A stretch of DNA of 41,665 nt from Gemmatimonadota bacterium (GTDB lineage Bacteria; Gemmatimonadota; Gemmatimonadetes; Gemmatimonadales; GWC2-71-9). The notes below the pieces were generated by a model, which had not been told where the DNA came from, made no database searches, and saw only the letters and a program-made list of their open reading frames with translations. Positions 4,878 through 41,625 of the stretch are shown piece by piece. The translations under genes were made by a program, and so were the position numbers. The DNA is taken from NCBI GenBank assembly GCA_029262155.1, contig JAJCZW010000069.1, positions 1 to 41,665 on the forward strand, written 5' to 3'. Position 1 is the stretch's first letter, and every line of letters starts with the position of its first letter.

Positions 4878-5354
4878 CTAGGGGAAAAACCGGTTCAGGT
4901 CGCCGAGGTCGATCGTGGTGTTCTGGGTGAAGCTTTTCGAAGAGGGGTAGTAGTAACGAGAGCCATCAGATTCTCCCTTCGTAATCGCGATGTCATAACG
5001 TCTCCTGGCGTTGCAGGCCAGGTCCAGAATCCGAACCACCGAGAAGGCACCGCCTGGAGCCAAATCCGTGGTCAGGCCCCGCCTTCCATATAGTTTCTTC
5101 CACGTTCCGATCCGCGTCCGGACGCGGCTCGAGGACCAATTGACGTGAATCTTCTTCTTGCCGCCGTTGCGAGCCTTGAATGTCACCCTGCAGCCCATAG
5201 ACGACTCCTCCGTCCACTCGTACGCCGCACCCGGCGGCAGAGGGACCGAGACCGCGTCCTTCGTGACAGCCGCCCCGCCCGGCGTGCCGGTCTGCGCCAA
5301 GAGCGCGGCTGGTGTTACCCCGAGAATCGCGATTGCCGTCAACCAGACTTTCAT
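4878..5354 (-). CDS. Secreted hypothetical protein
   Basis: 158 aa, signal peptide MKVWLTAIAILGVTPAALLAQ. Confidence 0.7.
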   Translation of the reverse strand: MKVWLTAIAILGVTPAALLAQTGTPGGAAVTKDAVSVPLPPGAAYEWTEESSMGCRVTFKARNGGKKKIHVNWSSSRVRTRIGTWKKLYGRRGLTTDLAPGGAFSVVRILDLACNARRRYDIAITKGESDGSRYYYPSSKSFTQNTTIDLGDLNRFFP

Positions 5355-5435
5355 TGTGACCTCTCCTTTGTTCCGAGTTCTCGAGCCCGACGAACCAGTG
5401 GCCCGCGGGCCTCTCGACGATTGCTTGCCTCTGGT

Positions 5436-6749
5436 CTAGCGCCCTCCGACCCGGGCCAGCTCAACCCGGCGGTTATTCTGGCGCCCTTCGACGGTGTCGT
5501 TGGTATCGACCGGCTTGGTCTCGCCGAGTCCCTCCGCATCCAGCCGCGTGTCGTCGATGCTGTACTGCTTCACCAGGAAACGGCGAACGGACTCGGCCCG
5601 GCGGCGGGAGAGGTCGAGATTGTACTCGTCCTCGCCGACGCTGTCGGTGTGGCCCTCGATCCTGATCGCGAGGTCGGCGTGCTCCAGGAGCATCGCGCCG
5701 ATCTCGGCGAGGGTGGGTGTGGACTCCGGCTTGATGCGCGAGCTGCCGGTATCGAAGAAGATCCCGCGGGTGGCCACCCGGCCATCGGCGGCGAGCGCCT
5801 CGTAGAGCGCCTTGCCACCCGCCGCGATGCGGATCGGGCCCACCAGCACCGGCTGGTCCGTCCAGATGTCGGGGAAGCTCAAGTAGATCCGATCAGTTCG
5901 CTCAAGCTCGACCCGCGGGTGATTGGCGAGCCGCCGCTCGTTCATGTAGACCTTGGCGTGCTCCCCGTCGACCATTACCCGAATCGCGACGAGCTCCTGG
6001 CCAATCCGCAGATCCTCGGCGCTGGCCACCCCCTGGTTCGCTCGATGGATGCCGGAGGTGTGCCCAGCCGCACCGTCAAAGAAGAAGTAGGGTCGCTGCT
6101 CACTCACGTAGAAGCGCTTTCCCTCACCCGGCTGGTAGGTTGTGACGATGACCGGCGCGTTCGGATGGCCGACGTAGGCATCGAACTCGAGGGTGAACCG
6201 CTCAGGAAGGTCCTCCGGCAGGGCGATCCCGAACCGGGAGTCGTTTGCCGCGACGCGGAGGAGCTTCCGACCGCGCCACTCCACCAGCTCCATGCCCCCG
6301 CGCACGAATTCGAGACGCCGGGGAAAATCGCCGACCTCATCGACCGTGAAGTCCTCGGCGAACACCACGCGGTCGCCGGGCACGAAGTCGTAGTTGGCCC
6401 AGGCGCCCTCGCCCGGGCGGATCGATGCTTTCGCGGCCGCCTGCTCGGGATCGGTGATCGGCGCGCCGTCGTCGTCCGTGAGCAGGTTTCCCTCGGGGTC
6501 GGTCAGGACCACCTTCTCGCCTGCGTCTTCGGCCGACCGGATACACTGCAGGTCATCGAAGACACACCCCACTGCGCCCCGCACCAGGTCCCGGACGCCC
6601 TTGTCCAGCAGACCGCGTGTCTCCTCCCCGGCGGCCTCAGCAACTGTCTTCTTGAGCTTCTTCCAGATCTGCGCGTCCGCGGGTTGGGCCGTCGTCAACC
6701 CGGCCAGCACCGGGATCGTGATCAGGATCGTCCAGAATCGTCGTTGCAT
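5436..6749 (-). CDS. OmpA family protein (C-terminal peptidoglycan-binding domain)
   Basis: 437 aa; C-terminus IRIEGHTDSVGEDEYNLDLSRRRAESVRRFLVKQYSIDDTRLDAEGLGETKPVDTNDTVEGRQNNRRVEL is a canonical OmpA C-terminal domain; signal peptide present. Confidence 0.92.
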   Translation of the reverse strand: MQRRFWTILITIPVLAGLTTAQPADAQIWKKLKKTVAEAAGEETRGLLDKGVRDLVRGAVGCVFDDLQCIRSAEDAGEKVVLTDPEGNLLTDDDGAPITDPEQAAAKASIRPGEGAWANYDFVPGDRVVFAEDFTVDEVGDFPRRLEFVRGGMELVEWRGRKLLRVAANDSRFGIALPEDLPERFTLEFDAYVGHPNAPVIVTTYQPGEGKRFYVSEQRPYFFFDGAAGHTSGIHRANQGVASAEDLRIGQELVAIRVMVDGEHAKVYMNERRLANHPRVELERTDRIYLSFPDIWTDQPVLVGPIRIAAGGKALYEALAADGRVATRGIFFDTGSSRIKPESTPTLAEIGAMLLEHADLAIRIEGHTDSVGEDEYNLDLSRRRAESVRRFLVKQYSIDDTRLDAEGLGETKPVDTNDTVEGRQNNRRVELARVGGR

Positions 6750-6920
6750 CGCTCGCTCCTCCCAAGTCCGAGTACGAGGCAGCTGCCTCTACTGGGTACA
6801 CAGGAAACCGGGCCCGAGGGGATCATGGAGGTAGCTCGGGCGTGGCGCGGTCGCCGTGGTGATCCCGTCCGGCGCAGAATTCTGTTTGACCAAGTAGAGA
6901 TTCCGCCGCACCTTACCCCA

Positions 6921-7496
6921 ATGGACCAGCAGGAACGGGAACGGGTACGGGCGCTATTGCAGGCTGTCACGGACGGTGACGGTAATGCCCTGGACGAGGT
7001 GTTCTCTATCGTCTACGGCGAATTGCGGAGCCTCGCCCATTCCCAGCGGCGGAGATGGGAGGGCGACTACACGTTCGACACCACCGCCTTGGTGCACGAG
7101 GCGTATCTCAAGCTAGTGGATCATGCAGGGACAGGGTGGAACGATGCTGGCCACTTCATGGCGGTGGCCGCCCGTGCCATGCGGCAGATCCTTGTGAACT
7201 ACGCTGAGCGCCGTCGGGCGGCGAAGCGGGGCGGCGGGCAGCAACCCGTCACCCTGGATGACTCGAATCCCATCGCTGCGGAAGCGGCAGACGAGGTGAT
7301 CGCATTGCACGAGGCGCTCGAACAACTCGAGCAGGTCAACCCGCGCCAAGCGCGAGTGGTGGAAGCGCGGTTTTTCGCTGGCCTCTCTGTGGCGGAAACA
7401 GCCAAAGCGCTCGGCGTCTCGACCGCCACCGTCAAGCGCGACTGGGGCGTCACCAGCGCGTGGCTGCACCGGGAGATCCGGATGACGCTCAAGTGA
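6921..7496 (+). CDS. ECF-type RNA polymerase sigma factor
   Basis: MDQQERERVRALLQAVTDGDGNALDEVFSIVYGELRSLAHSQRRRW...TTALVHEAYLKLVD...ARAMRQILVNYAERRRAAKRGGG...EARFFAGLSVAETAKALGVSTATVKRDWGVTSAWLHREI. The 783-aa ORF in the track is an N-terminal over-extension antisense to the ompA-like gene. Confidence 0.92.
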   Translation: MDQQERERVRALLQAVTDGDGNALDEVFSIVYGELRSLAHSQRRRWEGDYTFDTTALVHEAYLKLVDHAGTGWNDAGHFMAVAARAMRQILVNYAERRRAAKRGGGQQPVTLDDSNPIAAEAADEVIALHEALEQLEQVNPRQARVVEARFFAGLSVAETAKALGVSTATVKRDWGVTSAWLHREIRMTLK

Positions 7497-7506
7497 ATCA
7501 CGCCCT

Positions 7507-10098
7507 ATGACTCCCGAGCGCTGGCGGGAGATCGAGTCCGCGTTTGCGGCGGCGCTGGAGCACTCGGATGGTGACCGCAACCGATTCCTCGACGAGGCCT
7601 ACCCGGGCGACACCGACCTGCACCAGGAGGTGGTCGCGCTGCTCGAGTCGTCGGACGCCGCCGACGGATACTTCGATTCCCTCGCCCGTCGTATCGGGAT
7701 GCCTGTCGATCCGGCGGATCAGAGCTCGCGTCTGGTAGGCAAGCGCGTGGGGGCCTATCAACTCACGTCGCTCATCGCCCGGGGCGGCATGGGTGCGGTC
7801 TACTCGGGAACCCGGGTCGATCAGCAGTTTGAGCAAGAGGTGGCCGTGAAACTCCTGCCGATCGGCCTCGGGTCGGCCGACGCCCATCGCCGCTTTTTGG
7901 CCGAGCGCCAGATCCTTGCCCTCCTGCAGCACCCCAACATCGCTCGGCTCCTCGACGGCGGTGTGACGGAAGACGACACGCCGTATTTCGTCATGGAGCT
8001 GGTCGACGGTGTCCCGATTGATCGCTACTGCAACGAGCACGGCCTCTCCATCGATCAACGCCTCAGGCTCTTTCTGGTCGTGTGCGATGCCGTGCAGCAC
8101 GCCCACCGGAACCTCGTGGTCCACCGTGACCTCAAGCCAAGCAACGTCCTGGTCACCGAGGCGGGCGAGGTCAAGCTGCTGGACTTCGGGATTGCACGCC
8201 TTCTCGAAGCCGATGGTAGTGGTCCGGCCCGAACCTTGACCGCTCGATCGCATCCCATGACGCTGCCGTACGCCAGTCCGGAGCAGATCCACGGGGCCGC
8301 CGTCACGACCGCCACTGACGTATACGCCCTGGGCGTCCTACTCTACGAGCTGCTCAGTGGCCACAGGCCCTACGACCTGTCCCAGGCCACGCCGGCGGAG
8401 GCGCAACGGATCATCTGCGAGACGGAACCGGTGGCTCCCAGCGCGATCGTGCGGGGGCCGACCCACGAACCGGATCCGTCTATACGACACGCGGGGGGAC
8501 CTCGCTCGGCATTGTTGTCCGGCGAGCAGTTGCACCGCGCCCTGAAGGGAGACCTGGACACCATCGTCCTCGCAGCGCTACGCAAGGACCCGGCCCGGCG
8601 CTACGCGTCCGTCTCGCACCTGGCGGACGACATCGGGCGTCATTTGGGCGGGCACCCCGTGGCGGCGCACAAGGATTCGTTCTGGTATCGAGCAAGCCGG
8701 TTCGGGCGACGAAATCGAGTGGCCGTGGGGGTCGGGTCCGCAGTGGTCCTGCTGCTCGTCGCGCTCGCCGCGGTCGCGCTGCGGTTCACCATCGTCACGG
8801 CGCGGCAATCGGAGGCAATCGCACTCGAGGCCGCGACCGCCAACGAGACTGCGGATTTTCTGGTGGGAATCTTCGAACTCACCGACCCGGTGGACGGCCT
8901 CGGAGACACCGTGTCCGCCCGCACGATTCTCGATCGGGGGGCCGCACGGATCGGGACGTCACTGGAGGACCGCCCCGAGATTCAGGCACGACTCACGTAT
9001 ACCCTGGCCAACGTGTATGCCAATCTCGGCCTGTCCGATGATGCGATTCGCCTGCACGAGGACGCACTCGCGACCCGGCGTAAATTGGATCCGCCGCCCG
9101 ACGCCGACATCGTCGCGAGTCTGGAGCGGTTGGGAGGGGCGCACCTGGCCGCCCGCAACTACATCCGTGCGGAGGAGTACCTCACCCTGGCCCTCGCCGC
9201 CCGCCGTCAGATCCCCACCGATTCGCTGGCCCTCGCCAGTGTCCTGACCAGCCTCGCCCAGGTCCTCCGGACCCGCGATCCGGACTCGGCTGTCGTCGTG
9301 GCGGTTGCCGCCCACGGGATCAGAGCCCGTCTCCTCGGACCCGACGCGCTCAAGACACTGCGATCGCGCCACGAGGTGGCGTACGCGCTCCGAGGCCAGG
9401 GCCACCTTGATTCGGCCGAAGCCATCTATCGGGAGATTCTCCCGGCGGTCAGACAACTCGGGGACTCGGCCAGTCGGTTTCGCGCCAGCCTGCTCAACAA
9501 CCTGGCTTATCTCGTGGAACAACGGGGCGACCACGACGGGGCGATCGCGGCCTACCAGGAAGCGCTGGAGTGGGCCCGCTCCCGGGATGTCGCCACCAAT
9601 GTGGCGCAGGTTCTTCAGAACCTGGCCCGGGCCTTTGAGCGGTCGGGCCGCCCCGACCGGGCGTTGGAGCATTGGAAGGAGTCGCGCACCGTGCTCGAGG
9701 AGCACTTTCCCGGGGGCCATTGGAGAATCGGAGCGGCCAACATTGGCCTGGCCATGTATTTCGGCCGCAGGGGCGATCCGGCCTCCGCCGTCGTACCGCT
9801 CCGGCTGGCGATCGAATCGTATACCACGACCCTCGGACCTAACCATGGCTGGACCTGGGGCACGAAAGCGAAACTCGGAGCCACCCTCGGGGCGTTAGGC
9901 CAGTTCGAACAGGGGGAAACGCTGCTCCTCGAGGCGTTCGCGTTCACTTCTCAGCCCGACGGTGCCTCGTCTCGTGAGAACATCATGAACTGGCTGATCG
10001 ACTTCTATTCCGCCTGGGGGAAACGGCAGGAGGCCGCCAGCTACGATCGAATGCTCAACGTGGAGGGGTTCACCAGACGGCCCGGTCGGAAAGAGTAG
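7507..10098 (+). CDS. Transmembrane Ser/Thr protein kinase with C-terminal TPR region
   Basis: 863 aa; GRGGMG-like glycine loop (ARGGMGAVYSG), VHRDLKPSNVLV, LDFGIARL, YASPEQ; TM VAVGVGSAVVLLLVALAAVAL; TPR-like repeats. Starts 10 nt after the sigma factor stop. Confidence 0.93.
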   Translation: MTPERWREIESAFAAALEHSDGDRNRFLDEAYPGDTDLHQEVVALLESSDAADGYFDSLARRIGMPVDPADQSSRLVGKRVGAYQLTSLIARGGMGAVYSGTRVDQQFEQEVAVKLLPIGLGSADAHRRFLAERQILALLQHPNIARLLDGGVTEDDTPYFVMELVDGVPIDRYCNEHGLSIDQRLRLFLVVCDAVQHAHRNLVVHRDLKPSNVLVTEAGEVKLLDFGIARLLEADGSGPARTLTARSHPMTLPYASPEQIHGAAVTTATDVYALGVLLYELLSGHRPYDLSQATPAEAQRIICETEPVAPSAIVRGPTHEPDPSIRHAGGPRSALLSGEQLHRALKGDLDTIVLAALRKDPARRYASVSHLADDIGRHLGGHPVAAHKDSFWYRASRFGRRNRVAVGVGSAVVLLLVALAAVALRFTIVTARQSEAIALEAATANETADFLVGIFELTDPVDGLGDTVSARTILDRGAARIGTSLEDRPEIQARLTYTLANVYANLGLSDDAIRLHEDALATRRKLDPPPDADIVASLERLGGAHLAARNYIRAEEYLTLALAARRQIPTDSLALASVLTSLAQVLRTRDPDSAVVVAVAAHGIRARLLGPDALKTLRSRHEVAYALRGQGHLDSAEAIYREILPAVRQLGDSASRFRASLLNNLAYLVEQRGDHDGAIAAYQEALEWARSRDVATNVAQVLQNLARAFERSGRPDRALEHWKESRTVLEEHFPGGHWRIGAANIGLAMYFGRRGDPASAVVPLRLAIESYTTTLGPNHGWTWGTKAKLGATLGALGQFEQGETLLLEAFAFTSQPDGASSRENIMNWLIDFYSAWGKRQEAASYDRMLNVEGFTRRPGRKE

Positions 10099-38635: not shown

Positions 38636-41044
38636 TCAGCGCAAGTCGCGCTCCTGGTGCCCACCGCCAACATAGTCCGGGATCCAGTGACAGAGCGGCG
38701 GTACCATGACCTCCTCCCACAATCGGTGCAGGTCGGTGGCATTGGGCGTGACAGAGAATGGTGCCAGCGCCAAGGTCAGACTGTCTGTTCCTACGCATTG
38801 AGCCTCGGGAGTCGGTGTGGGCCAGCCGGCGTGTCCCGGACGGGTCCACAAATCAGCGCGACTTAACTGTCCGACCATCCGGAGAATAGTTACCTCCATT
38901 CGGCCATCCGAAGTCCATTCCGATTCGAAAAACCCTGGGGCGAAGAGCCCAAGTCCGCGCCCGCTGCGGTGGACAGCCAACCACCGATGCGTCGGAGCGG
39001 TTGCGAACAGTACCTCAGTACCCGCGACCACCATCTGCACGGGAACACGCTCCGTGGTCCCGAGCTGGCTCCCCGCCAGAGCGTTGGGTGCAGGCGAAAG
39101 CCCGGTCGGAAACCCCAGGCGCAGGCGACAACACACCGCGCGGTTCAGTACCTGCATCCGAAGACGGATCAGACGACTGGTGTCGGTGATCGAGAGACCG
39201 ATCCACCCATCCACCGTACCATGACCCGGAATCAGGAGAGCCACTCGGATCTCCAGACCGCCGATCAGCGGGCCCGGTGCGATCTGTCGACAACTCACCA
39301 AACGCGACTGGACCGGGAGCGCGCCCTCCTGTGGATTCTTCGGCGGGCAGTAGGTGTAGGTATCCCCACCATCGGGGTCGACGCTCCAAGCAGCTAGTCC
39401 GCGGTAGATCTCTCGAGTATGACGATCCCGCACCGTCAATGTTCCATCATCGTCGACCTTCACCCGGAGAAACTGATTCGTCATCGACCGATCCGTGACA
39501 GACACCGTTCCGGTCAACTGCGGAGTCGATGGCGTGACGGAAACCTCCAAAGCCTGCACCTGCTTCTTGGTGGAGTGGCGGTGCCGAAACGCGACCCAGA
39601 CCCGGTCGACCTCTCGGGCCAACGGATAGTGACGGTCGGCATCGACACGTTCCACCTCTCGACTTGTCTTGAGAATCTGCAGAGGAATGATGTGGCCGGA
39701 GGGATCCACCAGGGCGGTAGGGACAGGGTACGTCTTTTCAGGTGCAGGCGCAGACTGCGATGGCGGGCCGACCCGAATCGGTTGACGCGGCACCGTTACC
39801 GACGCTTCCACTATCTGCTCTCCCCGGTCGCCGCCGGTGGGGTCCCACACAATTAGACTGGGACGAACCGCGGTCGGATGGGCACGGGCATGATCGGGGT
39901 CGTGTCCAAGGAGTCGATGGAGACTGCGTTTGAGGAGGGTTGCTCCACTGTCGCGCACACCGTTCATGCGCTGGGTCATCGCCCGAGCGACACCGTCGGC
40001 ACAACATCCACCGAGGGTGTCGTGGAAGTGGGTGGAGAGGAGGGTACGCCAGAGGGCATCGACCAGTGGCAGTTGCGATGGCGTGCCGGGAGTCTCTGCC
40101 AGCGCAACCACCGGCTCGACGATCCGCTCCAACCAGAGTTCGAGCGATGCACTACGCCGTTTGAGCGGTGCTCGGGTCGACAGTGTCCCCTGCAGGGTCC
40201 AGGTATATCCTCCCGAATCACGGAGTGCCCCGGTGCGAATGGCGAGGCTCTCCCGGTCGGCATCGGCCTCCACCGCTGCGAAGAACTCTTCCAACGTCGA
40301 GATGCGAAACTCGCTGGTCGGCTCCAGGCAGGCCAGCGCGCGTTGGAGACCGGGAATATCCGGATGGACCCAGTGGTGATCGGCCCCCAGAAAGAGGGCA
40401 ACATGCCGGGTGCTGGCACGCGGCATGATTTCCTGGCAGACCGCATCCCAACTTCTGCTCAGGTGGCTTCCAGTCTGGAGGCTTGAGCCGACCTCGTAGC
40501 CCGATGGCGGAAGGTGATAGACCAGCACCTCGCCACCTCCTGGCCCGCACCAGCGGAAAAGGTCCTGGGAAGAATCCGTCCCCCGCCAGACCACGGCATG
40601 ACCAATCCCCACCTCGTTCAGCAGGTCGGGCGTGTCGCCAGTGTGCCCGAACGCATCTGGGAGGTAGGCCACGCCAGGTTCTCTTCCACCGAGACGCACG
40701 CCATCTCGCATGCCGAGCCGAAGATTCCAGCGCATCGCATGGGCCGACGGCACTTGGTTGTCAGCGAGCACATACGAGGGCCCCGTGACGAGCCGACCTT
40801 CCCGCACGAGTTGGGTTACAGTCGGCCGTGCGTCCGGGCGCAGAGACAGATAGTCTTCGAGGAGAATGGATTGGCCATCGAGATGAAAGGTACGAAGGGC
40901 AGGATCAGCAACGAGTCGCGCAACCAGATCATCCAGACAGGCGACCAAGTCAGGGCGGAAACTCGCCTCGGTCCGATACCACTCTCGGTCCCAGTGGGTA
41001 TGGGGGATCAGGTGAAAGATCAGCGACGGCACTCTTGGGGTCAC
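38636..41044 (-). CDS. Glycoside hydrolase family 38 alpha-mannosidase
   Basis: FHLIPHTHWDREWYRTEASFRPDLVACLDDL, FHLDGQSILLEDYL, YLPDAFGHTGDTPDLLNEVGIGHAVVWRG. GTG at 41044 overlaps the upstream TGA (GTGA). Confidence 0.92.
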   Translation of the reverse strand: MTPRVPSLIFHLIPHTHWDREWYRTEASFRPDLVACLDDLVARLVADPALRTFHLDGQSILLEDYLSLRPDARPTVTQLVREGRLVTGPSYVLADNQVPSAHAMRWNLRLGMRDGVRLGGREPGVAYLPDAFGHTGDTPDLLNEVGIGHAVVWRGTDSSQDLFRWCGPGGGEVLVYHLPPSGYEVGSSLQTGSHLSRSWDAVCQEIMPRASTRHVALFLGADHHWVHPDIPGLQRALACLEPTSEFRISTLEEFFAAVEADADRESLAIRTGALRDSGGYTWTLQGTLSTRAPLKRRSASLELWLERIVEPVVALAETPGTPSQLPLVDALWRTLLSTHFHDTLGGCCADGVARAMTQRMNGVRDSGATLLKRSLHRLLGHDPDHARAHPTAVRPSLIVWDPTGGDRGEQIVEASVTVPRQPIRVGPPSQSAPAPEKTYPVPTALVDPSGHIIPLQILKTSREVERVDADRHYPLAREVDRVWVAFRHRHSTKKQVQALEVSVTPSTPQLTGTVSVTDRSMTNQFLRVKVDDDGTLTVRDRHTREIYRGLAAWSVDPDGGDTYTYCPPKNPQEGALPVQSRLVSCRQIAPGPLIGGLEIRVALLIPGHGTVDGWIGLSITDTSRLIRLRMQVLNRAVCCRLRLGFPTGLSPAPNALAGSQLGTTERVPVQMVVAGTEVLFATAPTHRWLAVHRSGRGLGLFAPGFFESEWTSDGRMEVTILRMVGQLSRADLWTRPGHAGWPTPTPEAQCVGTDSLTLALAPFSVTPNATDLHRLWEEVMVPPLCHWIPDYVGGGHQERDLR

Positions 41045-41625
41045 TCCTCCCAGGCGCGAATATCCTTTTCGTCCTCGACGCCTAATGCGTCCGCCACTCG
41101 GTTGATGTAGTTGAAGTAGGACACGACCTGTACACAATCGTGGATGGCGCGATCATCGAAGCCGTGCTGCCGTAATCGCTCGAGGTTATCGGGGTCCATC
41201 GCATCGGGGGTGGCGGTCAGCTCGGCCGCAAAGTCCGCCAGCGCGCGGTCCGCCGGTCCTAGCGGGGCCGTTCGCCAATCCCGGGCGATCGCCTGCACCA
41301 TGGCATCCGCCTCCGCTTCGTCCGTCAATCCCCATCCATCGGCGACCTCAGCCCGGAGGTCGTGTGCGTGCGATCGTAGTCAGTATCGACAGTGGTTGTC
41401 ATGGGAGACAACGCAGGCTAATAGCTCCCGTTGGACGCGAGACAACCCCGATGGCCCAAACATCACCGTCGTGTACAACGACAGCGAGGCCTTCATCGTC
41501 CGTGGGTTCTGACTCATGATCGACACGATGTTCCAGATGCGTCCTGCCCGGGTGATGGCGGCATCATACTGGCTCTTGAGAAACCCGGTAGCCTCCTGCA
41601 ACGACACCACCTTGATCCACGGCAT
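41041..41625 (-). CDS. AhpD/carboxymuconolactone-decarboxylase-family peroxidase-related protein, candidate selenoprotein (Sec82 at UGA 41380..41382)
   Basis: Continuous frame on the minus strand: MPWIKVVSLQEATGFLKSQYDAAITRAGRIWNIVSIMSQNPRTMKASLSLYTTVMFGPSGLSRVQRELLACVVSHDNHCRY[TGA]LRSHAHDLRAEVADGWGLTDEAEADAMVQAIARDWRTAPLGPADRALADFAAELTATPDAMDPDNLERLRQHGFDDRAIHDCVQVVSYFNYINRVADALGVEDEKDIRAWEE. UGA replaces the second Cys of the AhpD-type CxxC-x3-H motif. Total 194 residues. Confidence 0.82.
41343..41362 (-). promoter_or_regulatory. Candidate bacterial SECIS stem-loop
   Basis: Minus-strand RNA after UGA: 17 nt, then CGACCUC-CGGGCU-GAGGUCG: perfect 7-bp stem, 6-nt loop with G at loop position 2, apical loop starting 25 nt after UGA. 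Confidence 0.72.

Follow-up and report, generated by a model that had tools for sequence, protein, structure and literature searches.

Bacterial SECIS elements and AhpD-like selenoproteins

The limits within which bacterial SECIS (bSECIS) elements fall are given in the passages of a 2026 review that deal with them (PMC13188914): a loop of 3-9 nt, an upper stem of 4-16 bp, 16-37 nt between the UGA and the loop, at least one G among the two bases that open the loop, usually with G or U after it, and a minimum free energy (MFE) of at most -7.5 kcal/mol. A table of the same review lists the AhpD-like CxxU selenoprotein as a TIGR01926 entry. An earlier study described selenoproteins of this type in Sargasso Sea material (PMC1088965), and in GOS they were counted under the heading AhpD-like 1/2 (PMC2398784). 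The stretch analyzed here (the window, 41,665 nucleotides of a contig from a Gemmatimonadota metagenome-assembled genome, MAG) carries on its minus strand an AhpD-like gene interrupted by one in-frame TGA and, downstream of this codon, a hairpin that, judging from its geometry and from its conservation among homologs, is almost certainly a bSECIS element in a CxxU AhpD-like selenoprotein (Table 1). Both the hairpin type and the enzyme type are already known, the former being a standard bSECIS and the latter the product of an ordinary selenoprotein gene; the interest of the case lies in the several hairpin designs that occur at one homologous UGA.

The hairpin shares with the bSECIS model, as that review presents it (PMC13188914), its coding position after the UGA, loop size, G2 followed by G or U, stem length, 24-nt spacing, and stability. 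It differs in that its primary sequence matches no Rfam 15 family: the window returns no family at gathering score, and the 301 nt around the hairpin return no match at E ≤ 10. Such a result was to be expected, sequence similarity among bSECIS elements being low. The protein has in common with the AhpD-like CxxU entry of the review table its NCBIfam family and a CxxU motif whose second redox residue is Sec. Here it is assigned to one subfamily out of five or more that differ in SECIS design, a division that the AhpD passages of the three papers do not describe. With the selenoprotein family NF041238 (AhpD_rel_CFYUT) it shares the AhpD core and a CxYU-type motif, but it falls outside this family because it scores far below the cut-off (58.9 bits vs 175) and has about half the profile length. 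Among known structures, the AhpD-fold, peroxidase-related proteins PDB 2pfx, 3c1l, 6k40, and 2oyo belong to the same family over almost the whole chain; the two that were aligned, 2pfx and 3c1l, are Cys proteins, whereas the window protein has a predicted Sec82.

Table 1. Features of the AhpD-like locus in the window
Feature	Position	Strand	Basis
AhpD-like (TIGR01926, peroxidase-related) selenoprotein gene, predicted	41041..41625	-	read-through ORF, family profile match, homologs
In-frame UGA, putative Sec codon	41380..41382	-	second position of CxxU motif C79-R-Y-U82
bSECIS apical hairpin, predicted; stem CGACCUC/GAGGUCG, loop CGGGCU	41343..41362	-	sequence, fold, homolog pairing
Apical loop C-G-[G/U]-N-N-N, presumed SelB recognition face	41350..41355	-	homolog Arg codons, published N1-G-[G|U] pattern
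Downstream gene, not part of the SECIS	38636..41032	-	ORF list

The AhpD-like gene and its product

The gene runs from an ATG to a terminator that is itself a TGA, and its read-through product comprises 194 residues with Sec at residue 82. The TIGR01926 profile matches residues 2-187 of this product, across the UGA, with 141.4 bits against a cut-off of 81.8, and Pfam reports a CMD domain. The redox motif reads N-H-C79-R-Y-U82-L-R-S-H, U82 aligning with the second Cys of the CxxC motif in PDB 2pfx and 3c1l and the UGA82 codon aligning with TGC or TGT in 14 Cys homologs. With a score above the cut-off and a UGA at the second Cys of CxxC, the protein belongs to the AhpD-like (TIGR01926, CxxU) type. 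By analogy with mycobacterial AhpD, U82 would be the peroxidatic position; the window protein also has a Glu located 12 residues ahead of the first Cys and a His 4 residues past the second, presumably the counterparts of those in the mycobacterial enzyme.

At UGA82 of the ahpD-like mRNA, SelB carrying selenocysteyl-tRNA-Sec would recognize the loop C-G-G/U on its stem of 6-7 bp and deliver Sec in place of termination. The product would be a CxxU redox enzyme of the AhpD family in which Sec replaces the second Cys of the CxxC of Cys homologs. That SelB binds here, that Sec is incorporated, and that the product acts as a thiol or hydroperoxide reductase are inferred.

Geometry and fold of the hairpin

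On the minus strand, the TGA (41382-41380) is followed by 17 nt, the 5' strand CGACCUC (41362-41356), the loop CGGGCU (41355-41350), and the 3' strand GAGGUCG (41349-41343). A reading of the letters without any database search had proposed a perfect 7-bp hairpin at this place, and both its position and its stem are exact: the seven pairs are all Watson-Crick. The 6-nt loop starts 24 nt past the UGA, close to the ~25 nt proposed. Of the two G residues placed by that reading at the first two loop positions, the one at position 2 stands; position 1 is a C (loop C-G-G-G-C-U), so that the loop G begins at position 2. The hairpin lies inside the read-through ORF after the UGA, within the codons for HDLRAEV, and its proposed fit to the general bSECIS model holds for every property considered (loop of 6 nt, stem of 7 bp, G2, spacing of 24 nt, -11.3 kcal/mol). 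The last value was obtained for the UGA with the following 40 nt, the hairpin alone giving -10.2 kcal/mol. When the 60 nt from the UGA are folded, as had been suggested, the hairpin is present in both the MFE and centroid structures and is the favored local fold. Its mean pair probability is 0.92-0.99 with context up to 90 nt and 0.45-0.60 at 150-250 nt.

Taken from this sequence alone, the hairpin is only modestly more than chance would give. Within the window, a Watson-Crick stem of at least 7 bp in bSECIS geometry follows 0.56% of the 1,079 TGA trinucleotides (8% when G-U pairs are allowed). Synonymous recoding of the same peptide returns a Watson-Crick stem of at least 7 bp in 5.8% of trials, recodings that keep all seven pairs with G-U allowed amount to 21%, and the 60-nt MFE z-score of -0.96 is uninformative for a single sequence. 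Because the TGA background, the recoding rate, and the z-score are moderate, one sequence is no proof of a SECIS; its hairpin is weak evidence, since 6-24% of synonymous recodings of the peptide also produce a comparable stem. The proposal that the hairpin is support for Sec insertion separate from that of the protein motif consequently holds at the comparative level and is weak for the single sequence. It is the comparative evidence that is decisive for SECIS identity.

Conservation and covariation in the subfamily of the window

Homologs were gathered by family, class, and phylum searches and by one scan of genome contigs, which returned many genes with one TGA at the UGA82 codon. The selection fetched comprises 144 distinct Sec and 14 Cys sequences, the former split into five groups by the sequence after U, and these more than 100 relatives provide clear evolutionary evidence for selection on the hairpin. 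Group 1 (n=72), to which the window belongs, has HAHDLRxE[V/I] after U. Its members, nearly all ~52-65% identical in amino acids, have the TGA at the UGA82 codon in 72 of 72 distinct homologs, with a reading frame open through it. Of the 72, 70 preserve the whole inner stem of six pairs, pairs 1, 2, 5, and 6 being standard in all and pairs 3 and 4 in 71 each. Two sequences have one broken inner pair each: L024 (G039:C3), with C.A, resembles the intermediate of a C-G to U-A switch, and L096 (G126:C1), with G.G, adjoins masked or unknown bases.

Pair 4 (+21/+34) is C-G in 63 homologs, U-A in eight, and C.A in one. When mapped by parsimony on a protein tree from which the SECIS-coded residues had been left out, it requires three changes on its 5' side and four on its 3' side, a pattern that reads as three compensated C-G to U-A switches and one half-way state, L024. 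The covariation analysis proposed by the sequence-only reading thus yields three compensations at this pair in group 1, together with one other Sec clade that covaries strongly. In these compensating pairs, the Asp codon GAT is seen together with a Val-to-Ile replacement.

Codon choice follows the same layout. In the stem, Leu+8 is CTC in 71 of 71, Glu+11 is GAG in 72 of 72, and Val+12 is GTC in 92%, while elsewhere in the gene the commonest codon of a conserved Leu column reaches 36-51%. The Arg codon of the loop is CGG in 60 and CGT in 12 of the 72 and never CGC or CGA, although the latter two make up 293 of the 605 Arg codons in the window ORFs; this choice agrees with the G-[G|U] loop rule. 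At the protein level, the loop-coded residue +10 is free (A, E, D, or G) and the stem-coded residues are nearly frozen. Synonymous freezing in group 1 is, on this alignment, limited to where the RNA needs it, and comparison of the homologs shows the hairpin to be selected at the RNA level.

Different hairpins at one homologous UGA

The remaining Sec groups possess other peptides and other stems after the same codon. Group 2 (n=39) mostly reads HHGAGLR after U and forms the stem ACGG[A/G]G / CUCCGU with a loop at +16, fully paired in 35 of 39 members; its Leu codon is CTC in 39 of 39 and its Arg codon CGT in 35 of 39. Since its predicted pairing is poor in longer context, support for this hairpin comes from conservation, not from thermodynamics. 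In group 3 (n=7), the peptide is HAEFLR and the hairpin ACGCAGA-GUU-UCUGCGU. Group 5 (n=8) has H[A/G]AVA, and either CGCCGC-GGUC-GCGGCG or CGGCGC-GGUC-GCGUCG.

Group 4 (n=18), with HTxLAR after U, exhibits hairpin variants that include CCGCCUU-GGC-AAGGCGG, CUGCCUU-GGC-AAGGCAG, CCGUCUU-GGC-AAGACGG, and CUGUCUU-GGC-AAGACAG. Here 99.2% of the cells are paired, three of the seven pairs have changed on both sides, and covariation amounts to 0.341 against 0.191 in shuffled alignments (reached in 0 of 500) and 0.107-0.146 in slid controls. Of the fetched loci, L115, L117, L118, L120, and L149-L162 are remote AhpD paralogs that contain a TGA (23-29% identity); their 7-bp hairpin with a GGC loop covaries strongly, so that the set is well suited to training a bSECIS covariance model.

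Across the family, the loop starts at +24, at +16/17 (with two different sequences), at +20, and, with yet another sequence, at +17. Our reading, held with moderate confidence, is that at least five unrelated SECIS hairpins occupy one homologous UGA, each of them constant within the branch or branches that carry it and dictating a different local peptide (HDLRxEV, HGAGLR, HAEFLR, HTxLAR, HAAVAxL). They would have originated either by a shift of register with Sec kept or by repeated Cys-to-Sec gain with a new hairpin each time. If true, an RNA signal has repeatedly rewritten the enzyme sequence beside the active site. The AhpD passages of PMC1088965, PMC2398784, and PMC13188914 do not describe five such designs after the same homologous UGA.

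Cys homologs

The five stem geometries were sought in the Cys homologs, and none of the 14 completes any of them. The stem is thus far from equally conserved in Cys-containing homologs, the finding that the sequence-only reading had named as contrary to a SECIS. All 14 lie outside the HAHDLRAEV clade of group 1, our searches having returned no Cys homolog more than ~44% identical to the query, and none of the 11 Cys genomes has a SelB over the cut-off. The tree that includes them was built quickly; its deep nodes are weakly supported and its Cys branches long. Within it, the Cys gene L033 (G080:C49, TGT) is nested in group 2, with an SH-aLRT of 99 for the clade; two of the six pairs of the group 2 stem are broken in this gene and its genome lacks a SelB over the cut-off, an apparent recent Sec-to-Cys reversal with stem loss. 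The MFE of positions +1 to +40 does not separate Sec from Cys homologs, so that pairing at defined positions, and not thermodynamics alone, is the test. An unrestricted search for the best hairpin also discriminates weakly when G-U pairs are permitted, four of the 14 Cys sequences reaching at least 6.

The 144 Sec and 14 Cys sequences are a natural dataset, unusually clean, in which different SECIS designs occur at a single codon. It combines covariation and frozen codons with a nested Sec-to-Cys reversal and with a SelB presence or absence that matches, and it allows direct tests of the origin and movement of SECIS elements and of the constraint they place on the active-site neighborhood of a protein.

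Selenocysteine machinery and host genome

The assembly that contains the window is a MAG of 3.2 Mb in 259 contigs, 90% complete. It encodes SelA (514.8 bits) and SelB (309.8 bits); neither a tRNA-Sec over the Rfam cut-off nor SelD was found in this 90%-complete assembly. The tRNA-Sec matches examined in the genome are Leu, Ser, and other tRNAs, and a SelD candidate (L017) was rejected, being below the SelD cut-off, ThiL-like by sequence, and next to an NAD(P)HX-epimerase-like gene. Among near relatives with group 1 genes (L132-L142), SelD is present in 11 of 11, each interrupted by one TGA and likely Sec-containing itself; a tRNA-Sec over the cut-off of the Rfam model is present in 10 of the 11, and ARAGORN reports one with anticodon TCA in nine. 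The absence of tRNA-Sec and SelD beside SelA, SelB, and two TGA-bearing AhpD genes may reflect either missing contigs or an oddity of the lineage, the simplest reading being that selC and selD are located in the missing tenth of the assembly. The second of these AhpD-like genes, L078 (G000:C153:7500-12000), belongs to group 2, ends with a TGA terminator, and has the hairpin ACGGGG-CGGGU-CUCCGU at +16.

The nearest copies of the window gene reside in MAGs labelled Chloroflexi (L049, L050, L053), and horizontal transfer of the gene is possible for this reason. Contamination by a foreign contig, considered on the same grounds, was rejected as tetranucleotide composition correlates at r = 0.98 between the window and the other contigs of the assembly. 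In the host's class, ~44% of the sampled genomes have an AhpD-like match and, among the matches listed, most have one TGA. The analysis establishes, at the level of sequence comparison, a UGA-interrupted gene of an uncultured lineage as a selenoprotein gene, of a kind common in the host's class.

Alternative explanations

The stem might be a by-product of protein conservation, the enzyme requiring HDLRAEV and the GC-rich codons of this peptide pairing by chance. The peptide is indeed highly conserved, and the 21% of recodings of this sequence that keep seven pairs with G-U allowed are in keeping with such a view. Protein conservation, however, would account neither for a Leu codon fixed as CTC when other conserved Leu columns peak at 36-51%, nor for a loop Arg that avoids CGC and CGA, nor for the coupling of Asp GAT to Val-to-Ile in compensating pairs, and in other clades different peptides come with different perfect stems. 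We regard this explanation as very improbable.

It is equally hard to credit that the UGA is a genuine stop, or a sequencing or assembly error, in a pseudogene or a gene for an 81-residue protein. A MAG devoid of detectable tRNA-Sec and SelD would fit this, but the TGA recurs at one codon in 144 distinct sequences, the frame and the active-site flanks are conserved on both sides of it, and the same MAG holds a second TGA-bearing paralog. Stem-loops after stop codons can stimulate readthrough in other systems, and the hairpin could in principle be such a stimulator, unrelated to SelB, of a UGA reassigned or read as Trp or another residue. This, too, is most unlikely: in stop-free homologs the UGA aligns with Cys and never with Trp, the AhpD-like gene itself terminates at TGA, the loop obeys the bSECIS rule, and SelA and SelB are present here, whereas the Cys genomes lack SelB.

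Neighboring genes

The gene downstream of the AhpD-like gene presumably encodes an alpha-mannosidase-like (GH38-like) protein, as judged from its motifs; at the other loci fetched, tblastn did not find it next to the AhpD gene. Elsewhere in the window (5145-10098), a 783-residue ORF with an ECF sigma factor domain in its C-terminal part is directly followed by a Ser/Thr kinase-TPR protein.
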